From an uncultured Oscillospiraceae bacterium (GTDB taxonomy: Bacteria > Bacillota > Clostridia > Oscillospirales > Ruminococcaceae), in NCBI GenBank assembly GCA_934408835.1, contig CAKRVU010000002.1:1-23607 (forward strand): DNA of 23,607 nucleotides, given 5' to 3'. The notes beneath the pieces are model-generated. The model was not told the DNA's origin. It worked only from the letters and a program-made list of their open reading frames with translations, and searched no databases. Shown here one piece after another: positions 650 through 21,252 of this stretch. Made by a program: the position numbers and the translations under genes. Positions within the stretch are counted from its first letter, which is position 1. Each line of letters begins with the position of its first letter.

Positions 650-1690
650 ATGATTGAAGTAAAACATCTCACAAAACACTACGGCAACTTTACCGCTGTA
701 AAAGACGTCAGCTTTTCGGTAAAAAAAGGTGAAATCCTCGGATTTTTGGGTCCGAACGGCGCCGGAAAATCCACGACAATGAATATCATTACCGGTTACA
801 TTTCCTCCAGCGAGGGAACAGTGACCATCAACGGTTACGATATTCTGGAGGAGCCGAACAAGGCCAAAGCTCAAATCGGTTATTTGCCGGAGCAGCCGCC
901 GCTTTATACCAATATGACGGTCACGGAATACCTCACTTTTGTTTGCAGACTTAAAAAAATCAAAGACAAAAAAGAACAGGAAACGCAGATTGCACGCGCT
1001 TGCACCATGTCGGGAATCGGGCATGTGCGCGATCGAATTATCGATCATCTTTCCAAAGGTTATCGGCAGCGAATCGGTATTGCGCAAGCTCTGCTTGGCG
1101 AACCACCGGTTTTGATTCTGGATGAGCCGACCTCAGGTCTCGACCCGGCCCAAATTGTGGAAATCCGGGAACTGATTCGATCTCTGAGCAAACATCATAC
1201 CGTCATTCTTTCCTCTCACATTCTGTCGGAAATCCAAGCAACCTGCGACCGGATTATCATCATCAGTCAAGGTCAGATTGCCGCGGACGACACCGCCGAA
1301 CACCTCTCCAAATCAATGAACGAAAAATCCGGTTATCTTCTTGATGTAGAAGGGGAGCAACAGGCGATTTTAAGTGCACTTGACCCCATTGCGGCGAATA
1401 CAGATATCCGAATGCTTCCTTCCGAGGAACCGGGACTGCAACGTTTTTCCATCATCTCAAAGGACGGATCCGACCCGCGCAGAACGGTTTTCGAGCTTTT
1501 GGCCGAAGCGCACCTTCCCATTTTTATGCTAAAGAGCAACGCGCTCACCCTCGAGGAAATTTTCTTAAAACTGATCTCAGAAAATATAGAAGAAAAGCAA
1601 AAAGCTTTGGACGAAAACGATTTGGAACAACCGAAACAGGATTCAACAGAGCAGCTTGAACAAAATACAGAAGGAGGAGCTTCTAAATGA
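650..1690 (+). CDS. ABC transporter ATP-binding subunit, GldA-like
   Basis: ATPase of an ABC-2 type exporter, 346 residues. Walker A GPNGAGKST is at residues 34-42, the ABC signature LSKGYRQ at 134-140, Walker B VLILDEP at 154-160 followed by the D-loop SGLD, and the switch His at 190. A regulatory-type domain of about 100 residues follows the nucleotide-binding domain, ending in an acidic, Gln/Glu-rich tail (from about 310). The ATG at 650 follows a GAGG ribosome site. Its TGA overlaps the permease ATG (ATGA), so the two are translationally coupled. ATPase, permease, GldG-like and DUF4340 genes in this order form a recurrent cassette; in Bacteroidetes the GldA/F/G homologues are tied to gliding and type IX secretion. 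The substrate in clostridia is unknown to me. Confidence 0.93.
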   Translation: MIEVKHLTKHYGNFTAVKDVSFSVKKGEILGFLGPNGAGKSTTMNIITGYISSSEGTVTINGYDILEEPNKAKAQIGYLPEQPPLYTNMTVTEYLTFVCRLKKIKDKKEQETQIARACTMSGIGHVRDRIIDHLSKGYRQRIGIAQALLGEPPVLILDEPTSGLDPAQIVEIRELIRSLSKHHTVILSSHILSEIQATCDRIIIISQGQIAADDTAEHLSKSMNEKSGYLLDVEGEQQAILSALDPIAANTDIRMLPSEEPGLQRFSIISKDGSDPRRTVFELLAEAHLPIFMLKSNALTLEEIFLKLISENIEEKQKALDENDLEQPKQDSTEQLEQNTEGGASK

Positions 1691-2391
1691 AAGCGATCTT
1701 TAAAAAAGAGCTGCGGGGTTATTTCATGACTCCGATTGGTTATGTATTTCTTGCAATTTTTTACTTTTTTTCCGGTTTCTATTTCTTTGCCGGCGTTGCC
1801 GCTGCGAACACGTCTGATATCAGCATTGTGTTTCAATCAATGTTTCTGATCGTCATGTTTTTGGTTCCGGTTCTCACCATGAGGATGTTCAGCGAAGAGT
1901 ATAAATCCAAAACAGATCAGTTGTTGCTGACCTCGCCGACCGGATTGTCAAACATTGTTCTGGGCAAATACTTCTCCGCTATGCTGGTCTTTTTCTTTGC
2001 CAGCCTCATCACCGTCCTGTTCGCTATTATTATCGCCGTCTTCGCACCTGTCGGTATTGCCGATTTCGTCAGCAATTTCGTTGGACTGCTGCTACTGGGA
2101 AGCTGTTTGATCTCAATCGGTCTGTTTGTTTCGGCTCTGACTAAGAGTCAAGTCGTCTCTGCGTTCGGCTCTTTCGGTATATTTTTGGCGCTTATGTATT
2201 TGGACACTTTTGCACAGTTTATGCCGACCGACTGGCTCCAAAATCTCCTTTCCGACATTTCCTTTATGGGTCGCTACCGCAGCTTTACCTCCGGTCTTCT
2301 AAATATTGCAGATATTCTTTTCTTTCTCAGTATTACCGCTTTCTTTCTCTTTCTCACCGTGCGCGTCCTTGTGAAAAAACGCTGGAATTGA
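1687..2391 (+). CDS. ABC-2 type permease, GldF-like
   Basis: Integral membrane subunit of 234 residues with about six hydrophobic segments (roughly residues 15-37, 47-67, 98-122, 130-150, 158-176 and 206-228). A conserved amphipathic stretch, RMFSEEYKSKTDQLLLTSP, follows the second helix and is typical of ABC-2 permeases that pair with GldG-type proteins. It overlaps the ATPase gene by 4 bases and uses a strong GGAGGAG ribosome site at 1673-1679, inside the ATPase gene. It would form the membrane channel driven by the upstream ATPase. Only one permease gene is present, so it probably works as a homodimer or together with the next gene product. Confidence 0.9.
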   Translation: MKAIFKKELRGYFMTPIGYVFLAIFYFFSGFYFFAGVAAANTSDISIVFQSMFLIVMFLVPVLTMRMFSEEYKSKTDQLLLTSPTGLSNIVLGKYFSAMLVFFFASLITVLFAIIIAVFAPVGIADFVSNFVGLLLLGSCLISIGLFVSALTKSQVVSAFGSFGIFLALMYLDTFAQFMPTDWLQNLLSDISFMGRYRSFTSGLLNIADILFFLSITAFFLFLTVRVLVKKRWN

Positions 2392-2402
2392 GGTGTGCTA
2401 AT

Positions 2403-3830
2403 ATGAAAAAATTTAAATTTCTTCAAAATCGACATGTTCAAAAAACGACTATAGCAACCATCATCACCGTCTCGTTTTTGGTTGTTTTGATTTTAATCAA
2501 TTCGATTGCTTCCATTCTCATCTCCCATTATGATTGGAAAATCGACTTGACCAGTTCGCAGCTGTATGAAATTTCAGATCAGACGACAGAGTTTTTAAAG
2601 AACTACGACCAAAACGCTCAAATCACCGTCCTCTCCAACGAGCAGACATATAAAACGCAAAGCGCTTACACACAACAAGCCTATAATGTGCTTGAAAACA
2701 TGGTCGCGCAAAACCCGTCTCACCTCCAGCTCTCATTCGTTGACCTAGACGAAAACCCCGAACTGGTGGCGCAGTATACCAATGAACATCTGTCAACAGG
2801 CGGAATCCTGATTGCAAATGAAGCAGGCGACTATCGTTACATCTCCCCCACCGATCTGTTCAGTCAATCCTATGACACCAGCACCATGCAGACTACCGGA
2901 ATCGACTCCAACGTTGAACAGACCGTTGCCCACGCCCTTGAGTACGTGTCAGGAGAAGATCCCGTTCAAACGGTAATCATCAGCGGTCATCAAGAAACAG
3001 ACTTAAGCTCGATTGAACCTTATTTTGAATCGAACAATTACAGCTTGACTGATATCAATTTGACAACTGATAATATTCCGGATGGCACCGACCTTGTCAT
3101 CATTGCGGCGCCATATGTAGATTATACCGATTCGGATATTGCTAAATTAAACGACTTTCTGAACAACGGCGGATCGGTTGCCTATTTTGCCGCAGCGTCT
3201 CAGCCGCAGCTTCCTACCTTAGAAAGCTTTTTGGCGCAATGGGGTATCTCCTTCCTCCCAGGCTCGGTCGTTGAAACGGATTCCTCCAACATGGTGGATA
3301 ACATGTTCTCCTTCTATATTTATGCAGAGGATAACGACTATACCGACAGTATGCTGGACGAAGATCTTCCCATTCTGGTCACTTATGCCAGACCCATGCA
3401 GGCGCAACCGGTAGACGGCGTCACAACTACCACCCTCGCCTCTACAAGCAGTAGCTGTGTTTATCGTCCCACCGGAGACGAGTCGTTCAATTTGCAAACG
3501 GCAGACAAGCAAAGCTATGCCGCCGGACTTGCCAGCAGTAAGGACTTAGAAAATGGAGACACAGCGCATGTCACCGCATTCTCTTCTGTGCAGCTGCTCG
3601 GCGCAATGGACGTACAGACCTTTGGCAACAGCAGCTTCCTGTTCAGCACGATTGGCGAAACTGCAAATCACAAAAGCGCTATCAACGTCCTGCCGAAATC
3701 AGTTACGGCGCCCCCCCTTGGAATCACGTGGTCGCAATGTCTGCTGATCGCACTGGTATTCCTGCTCATTATTCCAATTACCATCGTAATCATCGGGATT
3801 TATATGTTTGTCCGGAGGAGGCATCTGTAA
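2403..3830 (+). CDS. GldG-like ABC transporter auxiliary protein
   Basis: 475 residues with an N-terminal membrane anchor (about residues 18-42), a long extracytoplasmic domain and a C-terminal membrane helix (about 441-470) ending in basic residues. The segment just after the first helix (D-W-K-I-D-L-T, then Y-E-I-S-D-Q-T) is the characteristic GldG/ABC auxiliary motif. The middle part (IISGHQE, then DLVIIAAP and FLNNGGSVAYF) resembles the DUF4350/ThuA-like fold seen in this family. I place the start at ATG 2403 rather than TTG 2388: AGGTG at 2391-2395 is spaced 7 bases from 2403, while 2388 would overlap the permease stop with no ribosome site. It presumably partners the permease at the outer membrane face. 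Role in Gram-positives is unproven. Confidence 0.88.
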   Translation: MKKFKFLQNRHVQKTTIATIITVSFLVVLILINSIASILISHYDWKIDLTSSQLYEISDQTTEFLKNYDQNAQITVLSNEQTYKTQSAYTQQAYNVLENMVAQNPSHLQLSFVDLDENPELVAQYTNEHLSTGGILIANEAGDYRYISPTDLFSQSYDTSTMQTTGIDSNVEQTVAHALEYVSGEDPVQTVIISGHQETDLSSIEPYFESNNYSLTDINLTTDNIPDGTDLVIIAAPYVDYTDSDIAKLNDFLNNGGSVAYFAAASQPQLPTLESFLAQWGISFLPGSVVETDSSNMVDNMFSFYIYAEDNDYTDSMLDEDLPILVTYARPMQAQPVDGVTTTTLASTSSSCVYRPTGDESFNLQTADKQSYAAGLASSKDLENGDTAHVTAFSSVQLLGAMDVQTFGNSSFLFSTIGETANHKSAINVLPKSVTAPPLGITWSQCLLIALVFLLIIPITIVIIGIYMFVRRRHL

Positions 3831-3831
3831 T

Positions 3832-4830
3832 ATGAATCAAAAGAAAGTATTGCTTCTTTCGATCGGCGCAGTGGCTCTGCTAGCCGGCATCCTGATTACC
3901 CTCCTGTTTCTCGGCTTTAATCAGGATAACTCGGAAGACCAAATCTATACCATTCTTTCAGAATCATCCCAACCAAAATCGGTGCAGGTCACCAATCAAG
4001 ACGGCGTCTTTACCATGACAGAGAACGGAGAGAACGCGTCCGGAGAAACCAATTGGATCATCAACGAATTTCCCGATGTTCCTCTTTCCAATACCTACTG
4101 TCAGCAGCTTGCCAACACGACGCAGAACCTATCCGCCACAAAATTGTTCGATGCCCAAGAGGATCTCTCCTCCTATGGTCTCGATCAACCGCAGGCTACC
4201 GTCGTAGCTGAATTTGACAAAAACTCAGTTACCATCTCGATTGGAGACCAAAATCCTTCTATGACCGGGTATTATTGTCAGGTTTCGGATAACCCGCAAA
4301 TCGCACTCGTGTCCAACGCGAACGTCGCCCCCTTCCTGCGGGGAAGCTATGGCTACGTTGATCGCACTTTAATCCCATATACCAGCACAGACAACGAAGA
4401 AAGCGCCTCCAGTCAGGTGCAAAGCTGCACCATCACACGATCTGACCTTCCGGAACCAGTAACCGCCCAAAGAGGAGAAGACGGCAACTTGCAGATCACC
4501 AGCCCAGAAGGCTACAGCATGGATGCCGAAACACAAACCTTGATGGAAAACGCTCCCTTTTCACTAGCAGCAAAAAACACGGTATCCGTATACCCAACGC
4601 AAGAGCAGCTTACCTCCTTCGGACTGACAGAGCCGCAAGCCACCGTATCTTATGAAATTGCCGGAATCTCTTATACGCTGCAAATCGGAAACTCTGCCAG
4701 CACATCTCAAAACGCTGGAGACGATTCAACCAGTACCACTTATTATGTCATGCTCGAAGGTCGTCCCGTTGTGTACACGTTAGCAAATACTTCCCTCCCA
4801 TGGCTCACTATGAGCTTTACTCAAAATTGA
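3832..4830 (+). CDS. DUF4340 domain protein, membrane-anchored
   Basis: 332 residues: an N-terminal transmembrane anchor (about residues 8-30) and a Ser/Thr/Gln-rich extracytoplasmic part. The latter contains two related units, one around DLSSYGLDQPQATV and one around QLTSFGLTEPQATV, each followed by a strand-rich segment with I-G-(D/N) and a Tyr-Tyr pair. This duplicated pattern fits DUF4340, which commonly follows GldG-type genes. The ATG at 3832 has an excellent GGAGGAGG site at 3814-3821; the longer frame from GTG-like 3808 lies inside the GldG gene and lacks one. It lies 1 base after the GldG stop, so it is the last gene of the four-gene operon, with a terminator 150 bases downstream. 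Probably an accessory surface component; biochemical role unknown. Confidence 0.87.
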   Translation: MNQKKVLLLSIGAVALLAGILITLLFLGFNQDNSEDQIYTILSESSQPKSVQVTNQDGVFTMTENGENASGETNWIINEFPDVPLSNTYCQQLANTTQNLSATKLFDAQEDLSSYGLDQPQATVVAEFDKNSVTISIGDQNPSMTGYYCQVSDNPQIALVSNANVAPFLRGSYGYVDRTLIPYTSTDNEESASSQVQSCTITRSDLPEPVTAQRGEDGNLQITSPEGYSMDAETQTLMENAPFSLAAKNTVSVYPTQEQLTSFGLTEPQATVSYEIAGISYTLQIGNSASTSQNAGDDSTSTTYYVMLEGRPVVYTLANTSLPWLTMSFTQN

Positions 4831-5046: not shown

Positions 5047-5655
5047 TTATCCCTTGTCGTTAAAATGTAAATAAGATAAGATGGTAGTCGGCAGAAAGTA
5101 AACGCACCACATTTCTAAAGCCAAAATACCCATCCAGTCCGCCCCATTCGCTTCGGCAGAAAAGATACCCAACATAGGCATACTAAAACAGGATACAAAG
5201 AATATCCCATGAACCATGAGCAATATTTTGAGCCATTGATCCCTCTTTTTGACCGCACATATCGTTAAACCAATCAAAAAGGTTGATAATGCCATCATCC
5301 CATAACCCAAAAGGTCTAAGTTGAAAAACAACCCAAATTTTTTATAATCCAGTATTTGCAATGCTGTTTCATTGAGCGAATCGAGTCGCACCGTCGTGGT
5401 TTGTGTAAAATATACCAACAAAATCAACGTTGCGTATATTCCGGCAAAGGTCACCGATAGGATTCCGAGCGCGCGTCTGTCCTGACCGCACTCTGCATAA
5501 AAACCAGCTACCATCATCAAATATCCGATTGCGAGGAACATACAAACCAAATAACTGCCAAAATCAAACTGGAGAAGCATGCACACCGCAAAACAGAGAC
5601 CAGATAAGCCGGCAACGGCGGAGCCTATCTTTCCCATTCTTTTGTTCATATTCAT
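5047..5655 (-). CDS. Six-helix integral membrane protein, function unknown
   Basis: 202 residues, very hydrophobic, with six predicted membrane segments at about 9-30, 33-54, 61-83, 115-134, 141-163 and 173-196, short loops and a basic N-terminus. I do not recognise a named family, though similar uncharacterised small membrane proteins are common in clostridia. The ribosome site is weak (ACGGGT) and fits the second Met (ATG at 5649) at least as well as the first. It lies 111 bases downstream of the metallo-hydrolase gene on the same strand, so the two may share a transcript. No catalytic motif is visible. Confidence 0.72.
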   Translation of the reverse strand: MNMNKRMGKIGSAVAGLSGLCFAVCMLLQFDFGSYLVCMFLAIGYLMMVAGFYAECGQDRRALGILSVTFAGIYATLILLVYFTQTTTVRLDSLNETALQILDYKKFGLFFNLDLLGYGMMALSTFLIGLTICAVKKRDQWLKILLMVHGIFFVSCFSMPMLGIFSAEANGADWMGILALEMWCVYFLPTTILSYLHFNDKG

Positions 5656-7935: not shown

Positions 7936-9135
7936 CTAATCTTCTTTGTTCAGCAGCTTATCGTAAGTCGCGTCAATCCCAAATGCACCGAGCGGAGCAG
8001 TGATCATTATGCTAAGCACCGCAACTGAAAGGACGATGTTCCCACAGGGCAGACCCATCGCGAGAGGGACAGAGCCGATTGCCGCCTGAACCGTAGCTTT
8101 TGGCAGATAGGCAATCATGCAGAAGAGTCGTTCTTTGAAAGAAAGCGGTATTTTCACAAGACAGAGCATCACGCCAACTGCACGAAACAGCAGAGCAATA
8201 AAGATCATAGCGACTGCGGCGATTCCAGCGTCAAGCGTATAGCGAATATCCACCGCCGCACCAACAAGTACAAACAAAATCACTTCAGAAGCAATCCACA
8301 GCTTTCCAAATTTCTCCGCCAAGCGCTTGGATACAAACTCGGTGCTTCTGATTTTGAGCATGCACGCCATGCTAACCACTGCAAGTAGCCCCGAAACTGC
8401 CACATAGTTTTTTACCCAAGTTTCAATTGACATTAAGAGAAATGCCGCGCCGAGCACAACGATCACCTTCACGCTGTTACGAACAAGATGCTTATGGGCA
8501 TAGGCAGTTTCAAAAAAGAAGGACAGCGCAAAGCCGAACGTCACCCCAAGCGCTACACCAAGCAAAATAGAAACCGGGATATTTACAAAATCCATAATAT
8601 TCACCTTGCCACCCTGCGCCATGCCGACGAAAGTTGAGAACAGAACGAGCACAAAAATACCATCGCAGGACGCACCCGCCATAATCAACTGCGGTATCCC
8701 CTTTTGGGTTCCGTACTTTTCTTCCATCAGTTTTACCATTCTCAGCACGACCACTGCAGGTGAAACAGAAGCAAGTACCGCACCCATAACGGCGGCCTCA
8801 ATGCGTGTAACACCGAGTAGAAGCGGCGCAAACAGTACATAACCGATTATTTCAAAGCTTGATGGAACACAGGACATCATCACCGCCGGGCGCCCGACCC
8901 GTTTGAGATCGGACAGATTGAGTGACAATCCTGCTTTTATCATAATAATAATGAGCGCCATTTGACGCAATTCGGATGAGATGTCAAGAATAGATGGATC
9001 GAGCAAATCAAGCACATACGGTCCGAGCACAACGCCCGTGATAAGCATTCCAACAATTCTCGGCAACCGCAATTTTTCACAGATCGCCGCCATAGAAAGC
9101 CCAACCAAAAAGATAAGCGATAGAGATGTTAACAT
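7936..9135 (-). CDS. Cation:proton antiporter (CPA superfamily), riboswitch-controlled
   Basis: 399 residues, with about 11-13 hydrophobic segments over the whole length: a Na+/H+ exchanger-type transporter. Typical landmarks are the N-terminal helix plus LRLPRIVGMLITGVVLGP, the first unwound-helix region VLASVSPAVVVLRMV (121-134) and the ion-site region MAGASCDGIFVLVLFST (152-168). In relatives this site usually reads ND (CPA1) or DD (CPA2); here it is Cys 157-Asp 158-Gly 159, so only one acidic residue remains. There is no C-terminal TrkA domain. AGGAGG (on + 9142-9147) is 6 bases before the ATG. A TTGCAT-N17-TATAAT promoter and a fluoride-type riboswitch precede it, which ties the transporter to fluoride stress. 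Its actual substrate (Na+, K+ or fluoride-linked ion) is not determined. Confidence 0.9.
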   Translation of the reverse strand: MLTSLSLIFLVGLSMAAICEKLRLPRIVGMLITGVVLGPYVLDLLDPSILDISSELRQMALIIIMIKAGLSLNLSDLKRVGRPAVMMSCVPSSFEIIGYVLFAPLLLGVTRIEAAVMGAVLASVSPAVVVLRMVKLMEEKYGTQKGIPQLIMAGASCDGIFVLVLFSTFVGMAQGGKVNIMDFVNIPVSILLGVALGVTFGFALSFFFETAYAHKHLVRNSVKVIVVLGAAFLLMSIETWVKNYVAVSGLLAVVSMACMLKIRSTEFVSKRLAEKFGKLWIASEVILFVLVGAAVDIRYTLDAGIAAVAMIFIALLFRAVGVMLCLVKIPLSFKERLFCMIAYLPKATVQAAIGSVPLAMGLPCGNIVLSVAVLSIMITAPLGAFGIDATYDKLLNKED

Positions 9136-9160
9136 AAAAATCCTCCTATCAATACAGAAA

Positions 9161-9254
9161 AGCCAATGCCCCCTGCATAGTAAATGCAGAAGTCATCAGC
9201 TCAAATCGGCGGTTTTAGCTTGCGCTATGGGAGAACTTCATTCCCGAAATCATG
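9161..9254 (-). promoter_or_regulatory. Fluoride riboswitch (crcB motif) with terminator expression platform
   Basis: Reading the - strand RNA: a first hairpin GGGA...TCCC (9229-9245) with loop AUGAAGUUC, then CAUA, then AAAACCGCC, then GCUGAUGACUUCUGC. This is the order of the fluoride aptamer consensus (hairpin with GAUGGnGUU loop, CAUA, CCGC, GCUGAUGACUCCUAC). The loop GAAGU (9235-9239) pairs with ACUUC (9189-9193) as the pseudoknot; in the textbook aptamer these are GGAGU and ACUCC, so the change is compensatory. An 18-bp terminator stem (9184-9201 with 9161-9178, one A-G mismatch, several G-U pairs) with loop UUACU and a UUUU tail uses the same GCUGAUGACUUC strand. Aptamer and terminator are therefore exclusive: fluoride should turn the antiporter on. 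Recognised by pattern, not by a covariance search. Confidence 0.82.
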
Positions 9255-9260
9255 TATTCT

Positions 9261-9289
9261 ATTATACTCCTTATCGTCTTAAAATGCAA
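9261..9289 (-). promoter_or_regulatory. Sigma-A promoter of the riboswitch-antiporter unit
   Basis: On the - strand, TTGCAT (9284-9289), 17 bases, TATAAT (9261-9266). The expected start near 9254 lies immediately before the riboswitch aptamer. Confidence 0.8.
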
Positions 9290-19554: not shown

Positions 19555-20604
19555 ATGACAATCACATTTCCTCAATTTATTTCCAATTTAGACAGTCCCG
19601 CTTTTTTGGTCACCGTTATCTTAACCCTGGGCGTCATTTTTGTCAACGGCTGGATTGACGCTCCCAATGCAATTGCCACTTGTATCTCCACCCGTTGCCT
19701 GAGTGCGAAAACAGCTGTTGCAGTAGCGGCCATCTCCAATTTTGCCGGGGTCTTTGTCATGAGTTCTGTCAACGCAACTGTGGCGGAAACCATCTATAAT
19801 ATGGTGGATTTCGGCGGCGACCGAGATCAGGCGCTGATTTCACTTTGCGCCGCAATGGTGGCTATTGTAACCTGGGCGTTTGCGGCATGGCTTTTCTCTA
19901 TTCCAACCAGCGAAAGCGATTCGTTGATTGCCGGGCTGACCGGCGCCGCTATTGCAGTGCAAGGCGGAATATCCGGTATCAATTTTTCAGAATGGCAAAA
20001 GGTGCTTTACGGACTGGTTTTGTCTATCACGCTTGGTTTTCTGGTAGGTTGGATTACTGTAAATGGGATTAACCTCATTTGCCGCAGCATGGATCGGCGA
20101 AAAACGCAGAAATTCTTCAAAGGCGGTCAAATCGGCAGCGCCGCTGCCATGGCCTTTATGCATGGTGCGCAGGACGGTCAAAAATTTATGGGCGTTTTTC
20201 TGCTGGGTGCCTTTTTGGCGCAAGGGGAAGCGAATGTGACAACCTTTCAGATTCCAATTTGGTTGATGCTCGTCTGTTCCGCCCTAATGGCTCTAGGCAC
20301 TTCTATCGGAGGCTACCGAACCATAAAATCAATCGGTATGAAAATTGTAAAACTGGAAAAATACCAGGGATTTTCAGCAGATCTTGCCGCTTCCGCCTGT
20401 TTGTTCGGATTTTCCATTTTCGGAATTCCTGTCAGTACTACACAAACCAAAAGTGTTGCCATTATGGGCGTTGGCGCTGCAAAACGGATTTCCAACGTCA
20501 ATTGGGCGCATGTAAAACGGATGATTTTGACTTGGGCGCTGACATTCCCCGGATGCGGCATCATCGGCTTTTGTATGGCAAAAATTTTCTTGCAGATCGT
20601 TTAG
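19555..20604 (+). CDS. PiT-family inorganic phosphate permease
   Basis: 349 residues with about ten membrane segments. The duplicated PiT signatures are present in the clostridial variant: NGWIDAPNAIATC at 31-43 (GANDxxN elsewhere) and HGAQDGQKFMG at 203-213. Companion motifs are IPTSESDSLIAG (116-127) and, in the second half, GIPVSTTQTKS. The family imports phosphate with H+ or Na+. ATG at 19555 has GAAGAGGT upstream. The next gene, 21 bases on, is a DUF47 protein, the standard partner of PiT permeases. Promoter at 19455-19483, terminator at 21267-21303. Confidence 0.94.
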   Translation: MTITFPQFISNLDSPAFLVTVILTLGVIFVNGWIDAPNAIATCISTRCLSAKTAVAVAAISNFAGVFVMSSVNATVAETIYNMVDFGGDRDQALISLCAAMVAIVTWAFAAWLFSIPTSESDSLIAGLTGAAIAVQGGISGINFSEWQKVLYGLVLSITLGFLVGWITVNGINLICRSMDRRKTQKFFKGGQIGSAAAMAFMHGAQDGQKFMGVFLLGAFLAQGEANVTTFQIPIWLMLVCSALMALGTSIGGYRTIKSIGMKIVKLEKYQGFSADLAASACLFGFSIFGIPVSTTQTKSVAIMGVGAAKRISNVNWAHVKRMILTWALTFPGCGIIGFCMAKIFLQIV

Positions 20605-20625
20605 AGAAAAGCGGAGGACAATGTT

Positions 20626-21252
20626 ATGAGAAAGAAAAAAAAGAACAATTACTTTGTAATGCTATTGAATATGGCCGGATATTGTTCCAAAGCGGCAGTC
20701 TGTTTAGAAGAAACGCTTCAGAATTATAACCAAGAAACACTGCAACACAAAATAGAAGAAATCCACCAAATAGAGCACTCTGCCGACGAGGCAAAACACG
20801 ATTTAACCAACCGGCTGCTGACCGAATTCATCACCCCCATCGACCGTGAGGATATCCTTCACCTTTCCGACTGTATCGACGATGTCACCGACCATATCGA
20901 GGACGTATTGCTCAACCTTTATATGTACCATATCGACGAGCTTGTTCCCCAATTGACAGAATTTTCCCATCTGCTCCAGCGAAGCTGCAAACAACTAGAA
21001 AAGGTAATGGAAGAGTTTTCCAAGCTGCAAAAATCCTCCTCCATTAAAAGCCTTCTCATTCAATTGGACAGCCTGGAAAGCGAGGGCGACGTTTTGTACG
21101 CCGACACAATTCGGGCGCTGTATCAGCATACCGACTGGCATCCGCTAAAGGTAATGGCGTGGGAAAAAATTCTTTCTTGCTTTGAGAAATGCTACGACTC
21201 CTGCGAGGGCATTGCAAATTGCGTCCAGAACATTTTAATCACAAATTCATAA
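20626..21252 (+). CDS. DUF47 family PhoU-like phosphate transport regulator
   Basis: 208 residues, all-helical. Two acidic metal-site motifs typical of the PhoU/DUF47 fold are visible: EIHQIEHSADEAKHDL (about 45-60) and LDSLESEGDVLY (about 147-158). DREDILHLSDCIDDVTDHIED lies between them. DUF47 proteins accompany PiT permeases and are thought to modulate them. AGCGGAGGA lies ahead of ATG 20626. It is the second and last gene of the phosphate operon, which then meets glmS tail to tail at a shared terminator. Confidence 0.92.
   Translation: MRKKKKNNYFVMLLNMAGYCSKAAVCLEETLQNYNQETLQHKIEEIHQIEHSADEAKHDLTNRLLTEFITPIDREDILHLSDCIDDVTDHIEDVLLNLYMYHIDELVPQLTEFSHLLQRSCKQLEKVMEEFSKLQKSSSIKSLLIQLDSLESEGDVLYADTIRALYQHTDWHPLKVMAWEKILSCFEKCYDSCEGIANCVQNILITNS

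Follow-up and report, generated by a model that had tools for sequence, protein, structure and literature searches.

Genes placed under fluoride riboswitches usually encode Fluc/CrcB or CLC-F exporters, and the locus described here raises the question of what such a switch is doing ahead of a gene from a different protein family. The locus lies in a stretch of 23,607 nucleotides, referred to below as the window. The original prediction was that a fluoride riboswitch there controls a CPA-type cation/proton antiporter, through which the organism would handle fluoride or the pH and ion load that comes with it.

The fluoride riboswitch and its terminator

A covariance search with cmscan returned a full-model match to the crcB motif, RF01734, at 9254-9180 on the minus strand, as are all elements of the switch and its gene described below (42.1 bits, E 9.9e-9, against a curated gathering threshold of 34 bits). 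RF01734 was the only family matched at the gathering threshold across the 23.6-kb window. The riboswitch that had been predicted is very probably genuine, and its sequence suggests a response to fluoride. P1 (9229-9245) is a hairpin of four base pairs, in which GGGA (9245-9242) and UCCC (9232-9229) enclose the loop AUGAAGUUC; the loop holds the 5' pseudoknot strand, GAAGU (9239-9235), which forms five Watson-Crick pairs with ACUUC (9193-9189). The hairpin and its loop, CCGCC and GCUGAUGACUUC, all named in the original prediction, can be read directly from the sequence. In common with the Rfam motif the window has a full-length match, P1, the pseudoknot, the GCUGAUGA core and a terminator that takes the pseudoknot strand, but it departs from the motif in two places. 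Firstly, an extra hairpin with a GNRA loop, UAGC-GCAA-GCUA (9216-9227, from the computed fold), is inserted between P1 and P3; it is shared with the clade, and the equivalents in relatives often have GAAA as their loop. Secondly, P3 (9199-9210) is weakened to two stacked pairs followed by a C-A mismatch, with two non-standard pairs flagged by cmscan. Among 74 readable aptamers (3/77 were dropped because the pattern was absent), P3 has at least three pairs in 72, and two stacked pairs in the window and L065.

Upstream of the aptamer, a promoter-like element can be read at 9261-9289, with a -35 box TTGCAT (9289-9284), a 17-nt spacer and a -10 box TATAAT (9266-9261). The proposed promoter holds in its -10 box, which is perfect and has TATAAT-like counterparts at the equivalent place in a number of related loci, but less so in its -35 box, which is weak; the element is unlisted by a consensus scan because the -35 box fits the consensus at just 3/6 positions. 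Downstream, a Shine-Dalgarno sequence, AGGAGG (9142-9147), is found 6 nt ahead of the ATG.

The pseudoknot had been singled out as a compensatory change from the usual pairing. Its five pairs were confirmed, but the string TGATGACTTCT is present upstream of the gene in 73/80 homologous loci (400 nt were examined, or less at contig ends, as in six loci), and GAAGU/ACUUC is therefore one shared inherited state that provides no independent covariation. It is the clade norm and an inherited difference from the Rfam consensus, not a fresh or local change. The P1 hairpin with loop AUGAAGUUC is identical in 43/77 aptamers, differs by one loop base in 26 and has no pattern match in 7; this set was mostly chosen by the 3' string and is thus uninformative on 3' variation.

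The computed fold places a terminator hairpin of 18 bp at 9160-9202, followed by UUCUGUAUU (tail from 9159). Its arms (9202-9184 and 9178-9160) form nine plus nine pairs flanking one mismatch, and its free energy of -22.7 kcal/mol compares with -10.9 +/- 2.1 kcal/mol in 200 shuffles (z -5.56), none of which was as good. The T tract of the window, TTTTCTG, is short and interrupted with four T, and 5-7 T are found in 65 of 75 sequences (3 were unreadable). A simple terminator scan called no site at the window riboswitch, because it disallowed the interior mismatch and demanded a richer T run. Both the claimed hairpin and its reuse of the pseudoknot strand are nevertheless upheld, as the stem overlaps ACUUC (9189-9193, common to both structures in sequence and fold) and the 3' strand of P3. 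Fluoride binding would therefore exclude termination, and the predicted architecture is that of an ON switch, as was first proposed. Transcriptional fluoride riboswitches are reported to work by such an overlap of terminator and pseudoknot as a conserved feature of their mechanism, and in some functional variants the overlap is described as reaching through P3 (PMC13273304).

The regulated gene and its altered ion site

The gene behind the switch (7936-9135, flanked by a GMP synthase gene and a Nudix gene) encodes a protein of 399 amino acids, for which PF00999 is the sole Pfam family reported at E up to 0.001; at the same threshold there is no match to PF02537 or PF00654, the families that would mark a Fluc/CrcB or CLC-F exporter. 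Its membership of the NHA2/SLC9B2-like branch of PF00999 is as good as certain. The protein has the PF00999 domain and the NHA2 fold, its AF2 model is well folded, and residues E95, D158, R318, Y343 and T348 are retained. E95 and R318 align with the NHA2-type Glu-Arg pair and are invariant in alignment A1; the pair is named as E214 and R431 in bison NHA2 (PMC8850199). The wider family keeps the NHA2 determinants E95, V124-S125-P126-A127, D158, D159, R318 and T348 with single exceptions.

The window protein breaks with this pattern at two codons. Codon 159 (8659-8661) is GGT, encoding Gly at the position of human NHA2 D279, which is the second aspartate in the DD motif, and codon 131 (8743-8745) is CTG, encoding Leu in place of human P251. 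Compared with mammalian NHA2/SLC9B2 (7p1j, 7b4l), the window protein thus has DG for DD and Leu at the P251 equivalent; it also has no N-terminal extension, and W457 is replaced by Tyr, a difference seen in almost every member of the bacterial family. The ion site of NHA2, D278-D279 in human and D277-D278 in bison, is termed strictly conserved, and a double Asp-to-Cys mutant of bison NHA2 is termed non-functional (PMC8850199). The position of NhaA D164, equivalent to the second Asp of the NHA2 pair, is given as Asp in 94% of CPAs and has repeatedly been reported as essential (PMC6181914). With Gly159 at the ion-binding aspartate (NhaA D164, human NHA2 D279), the window protein is homologous to the CPA superfamily, but from its sequence it is not classed as a working cation/proton antiporter. 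The original prediction was accordingly right in placing a CPA-superfamily gene under the switch and went too far in making it a working antiporter; the proposal that fluoride or pH is handled through such a transporter is not supported for this copy, in which the ion-binding aspartate is gone.

Both changes are confined to a small clade. D159G and P131L are found together in clusters P0001-P0004, which are 98-100% identical and come from several contigs and sources, and are absent from the other 196 aligned close homologues (116 proteins and 80 loci, 190 distinct sequences), in all of which Asp159 and Pro131 are intact. A search with residues 128-175 gave 2,557 matches, and no further Gly159 was seen among the 120 best listed. 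More distant members also keep the DD pair (33/34, 119/120 and 30/30 in three sets), the exception in the first two sets being one and the same protein, L086/P0230, which has N-T. One alignment had raised the idea that the whole fluoride-linked family is without the DD motif, and this was rejected on the counts for Asp159 in the other homologues (196/196, 119/120 and 30/30). Single-codon changes in an otherwise conserved gene, in a window taken from one contig, could in principle be a sequence or assembly artefact, but both are also present in P0002, P0003 and P0004, which were recovered from one, two and three further contigs and from different sources. As four near-identical clusters share D159G and P131L, an error in one assembly is unlikely, and the artefact reading is largely refuted and scarcely credible. 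A relative of the antiporters that is placed under a fluoride switch and has lost this Asp is thus a genuine variant of the lineage; the literature searched gave no description of an Asp-less fluoride-linked antiporter, which says little, given a coverage mostly without subscription journals.

Elsewhere in the window, 19555-21252 on the plus strand encodes a PiT phosphate transporter (PHO4) and, after it, a PhoU_div/DUF47 protein, with no switch at that place; phosphate import is tied to fluoride tolerance in a review (PMC11139923). An ABC transporter operon at 650-4830 (plus strand) has the GldA/GldF/GldG gliding-motility proteins as its best models, all below curated cut-offs, and also encodes a DUF4340 protein. 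A 202-amino-acid open frame at 5047-5655 (minus strand) matches neither Pfam nor NCBIfam models at E up to 0.001.

Linkage to fluoride switches and to other exporters

Antiporters are described as the second commonest class of fluoride-switch gene after exporters (PMC11139923), and the CD0656-7 operon of C. difficile is reported to place a CLC and NhaP pair under one fluoride switch (PMC11477304). Like the switch-linked Na+/H+ antiporters of these two accounts, the window gene belongs to PF00999 and comes immediately after a fluoride switch, but it has no adjacent CLC and has lost the ion-binding Asp.

The extent of this pairing was surveyed in a protein collection, in which 7,992 candidate homologues were scored (all E up to 0.001), and in Clostridia genomes, where 173 stretches encode a relative and the best 80 were kept; the genomes of 50 of these 80 were searched and a fluoride switch over the cut-off was found in 46. 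In addition, 147 genomes were drawn evenly from the order of G008, the genome that holds L008 (Faecalibacterium prausnitzii), an order which we take to be Oscillospirales. The gene is held by 27 of them at 48-77% identity (E up to 1e-60), and a switch lies directly upstream, at 45-162 nt, in 26/27 homologues, one slightly below the cut-off at 33.6 bits; conversely, the sample contains 31 switches over the cut-off, and 25 of them precede the NHA2-like gene. A second sample comprised 196 genomes from the order of G006 (Candidatus Blautia), presumably Lachnospirales, and here 37/63 homologues are switch-linked, including 24 of the 31 most similar, while 26/63 are unlinked; 36 of 50 over-cut-off switches precede an NHA2-like gene. 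A further 101 genomes from the order of G001 yielded eight more homologues, which share 48-60% identity and include one truncated at the end of its contig. An over-cut-off switch accompanies L082, L084 and L086 and none was found with L083, L085, L087, L088 and L089; a ninth fragment, L090, was left out. The NHA2-like gene is thus the main fluoride-switch gene in two sampled orders, and a good part of the wider family is unlinked. At family level, switch and gene are very strongly linked, and the pairing is not unusual but common in gut Clostridia, the window being a new example of a known arrangement.

Several other switch arrangements were seen in these genomes. Two same-strand fluoride switches lie about 1.75 kb apart at G194:C25:18237-21364, one before the antiporter and the upstream one before an unassigned stretch. 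Three are found inside 1.7 kb, on both strands, at G390:C1:3523-5178. In one genome, a switch precedes a CLC gene at G158:C1:470084-471386, and a second, sub-cut-off switch precedes a CrcB gene at 924073-924553.

The known exporters are distributed unevenly around the gene. In the 50 genomes with a close homologue, CrcB is over the cut-off in 1 and any CLC in 28, and neither reaches it in 21. In the 147-genome sample, CrcB occurs in 0/27 genomes with the gene vs 12/120 without it (p 0.12) and CLC in 17/27 vs 45/120 (Fisher p 0.018), and 10 of the 27 carriers have neither; many of the genomes are draft metagenome assemblies, so that absences of CrcB or CLC are soft. As neither exporter is found in some genomes and CLC is found in others, the gene is sometimes the sole fluoride-linked transporter detected. 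The idea that the antiporter replaces the exporters finds no support in these co-occurrences, since CLC is commoner with the gene and the absence of CrcB does not go beyond p 0.12. For typing, 20 CLC genes were taken from the 29 in 28 genomes, and 3 were unread; GSGIP is present in 5 and GREGA without GSGIP in 12, the latter presumably being CLC-F-like.

These distributions bear on the idea that the window protein has changed its function, in which loss of Asp159 would end cation binding and the protein would instead carry something else, such as HF or F- together with H+, as a fluoride leak or export route. The gene sits under a fluoride switch, a full-length and, on the model, foldable protein is retained, and the genomes with neither exporter would leave room for such a role. 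The large family, however, keeps its cation-antiport residues, CLC co-occurs with the gene rather than being replaced by it, no charged residue has been gained at sites conserved at 95% or more, and many genomes are drafts; the idea is quite unlikely. More speculative still, and very doubtful, is the proposal that the fluoride-switched NHA2-like proteins of gut Clostridia form a third family of fluoride-resistance transporters, sufficient without Fluc or CLC-F; in the window variant, loss of the aspartate would have made the exchanger core conduct fluoride or protons, with induction by fluoride retained.

Possible relaxation of the window lineage and a proposed model for the locus

Clusters P0001-P0004 depart 8-9 times from sites conserved at 98% or more, against a median of 1 and a maximum of 8 in 48 isolated relatives, none of which has a neighbour that reaches 90% identity; the homologous sequences are related, and such counts are therefore not independent. 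L061 has 8 departures at near-invariant sites, equal to P0003, yet its Asp159 is intact. Variation within the clade was also compared with 2,273 differences in 483 close pairs. At positions conserved at 99% or more it involves 0/11 sites, vs 96/2273 (4.2%) in the other pairs; at 98.5% or more, 2/11 (T329I and G354V) vs 122/2273 (5.4%); and at the 98% threshold, 2/11 vs 7.6%. The remaining 9/11 clade-varying sites lie outside the near-invariant set. Relaxation as read from variation inside the clade thus shifts with the threshold chosen (99, 98.5 or 98%) and was set aside as support. Each of the four clusters nevertheless has a full-length frame, so some constraint remains, and the well-folded AF2 model and the retention of E95, D158, R318, Y343 and T348 likewise speak against simple decay.

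Two other members of the family also look damaged. L086:1501-2670 (minus strand), at 48% identity, has Asn-Thr where its relatives have the Asp pair, and its counterpart of Tyr343 is Asn; its switch (2723-2806, minus strand, 46.5 bits) lies 53 nt upstream of the gene. It is a single sequence of 120, and the N-T state was rejected as the mark of a conserved clade. The homologue L046:4001-5194, from Enterocloster alcoholdehydrogenati C5-48, has an in-frame stop at codon 135, which could be an assembly error; its genome has one over-cut-off fluoride switch, about 100 nt upstream by coordinates, and no CrcB or CLC match. Among the further homologues listed with an internal stop, L199 and L214 were checked, and their stops fall at the last codon or no more than 3 codons from the match end. 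The window clade, L086 and L046 would all fit a history in which an accessory function is lost repeatedly and the switch outlives the gene.

It has to be considered whether the window gene is, after all, an ordinary working fluoride-induced antiporter, in which D159G is tolerated, Asp158 performs the exchange and pH and ion homeostasis proceeds as in relatives. D158, E95, R318 and T348 are retained, the frame is full length in four clusters, change inside the clade shows no clear excess at invariant sites and the switch scores over the cut-off. Against this, the Asp164 equivalent is the residue reported as Asp in 94% of CPAs and repeatedly found essential (PMC6181914), it is Asp in 196/196 close homologues and 30/30 further loci, and 8-9 departures at near-invariant sites fall on the branch leading to the clade, which makes a fully working antiporter unlikely. 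One residue change is no proof that all transport has been lost, but impairment or a functional shift of the window protein is probable on its sequence, with the weakened P3 pointing the same way. The overall reading, that a fluoride ON switch controls a relative of the antiporters whose function has been impaired or has shifted in the window lineage, is judged fairly probable.

The aptamer and its terminator, the family of the gene, its altered residues and the family-wide linkage are established from sequence and computation, and on this basis we infer the fluoride response, transport and loss of activity in the following way. Without fluoride, the nascent RNA would form the 18-bp terminator, which captures the 3' strands of both pseudoknot and P3, and RNA synthesis would halt ahead of the gene. 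Fluoride with Mg2+ would stabilise the pseudoknot and allow RNA polymerase to continue into the NHA2-like CPA gene. Across the wider family the product is most likely an electroneutral cation/proton antiporter, offsetting the shifts in pH and ions that HF entry brings about, whether or not a dedicated exporter is present. In intact relatives it would exchange Na+ or another cation for protons; from general bioenergetics, an inward Na+ gradient may drive removal of the acid load arising from HF entry and F-/H+ exporters, or exchange in the reverse direction may lower the pH difference by which fluoride is trapped in the cell. With Gly159 and Leu131, normal cation/proton exchange has probably been lost or altered in the window lineage, and either the locus is relaxing or the task of the protein may have changed.

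Antiporters are the second commonest gene class behind fluoride switches, according to the review cited above, yet their role there, in pH homeostasis, has so far been inferred. The NHA2-like family offers a clean test set, as a single gene that frequently follows the switch immediately and whose host genomes frequently have no known exporter. Within it, the window lineage has naturally lost the ion site but kept the switch, and comparison of this variant with its intact relatives would reveal whether fluoride control selects for cation exchange.
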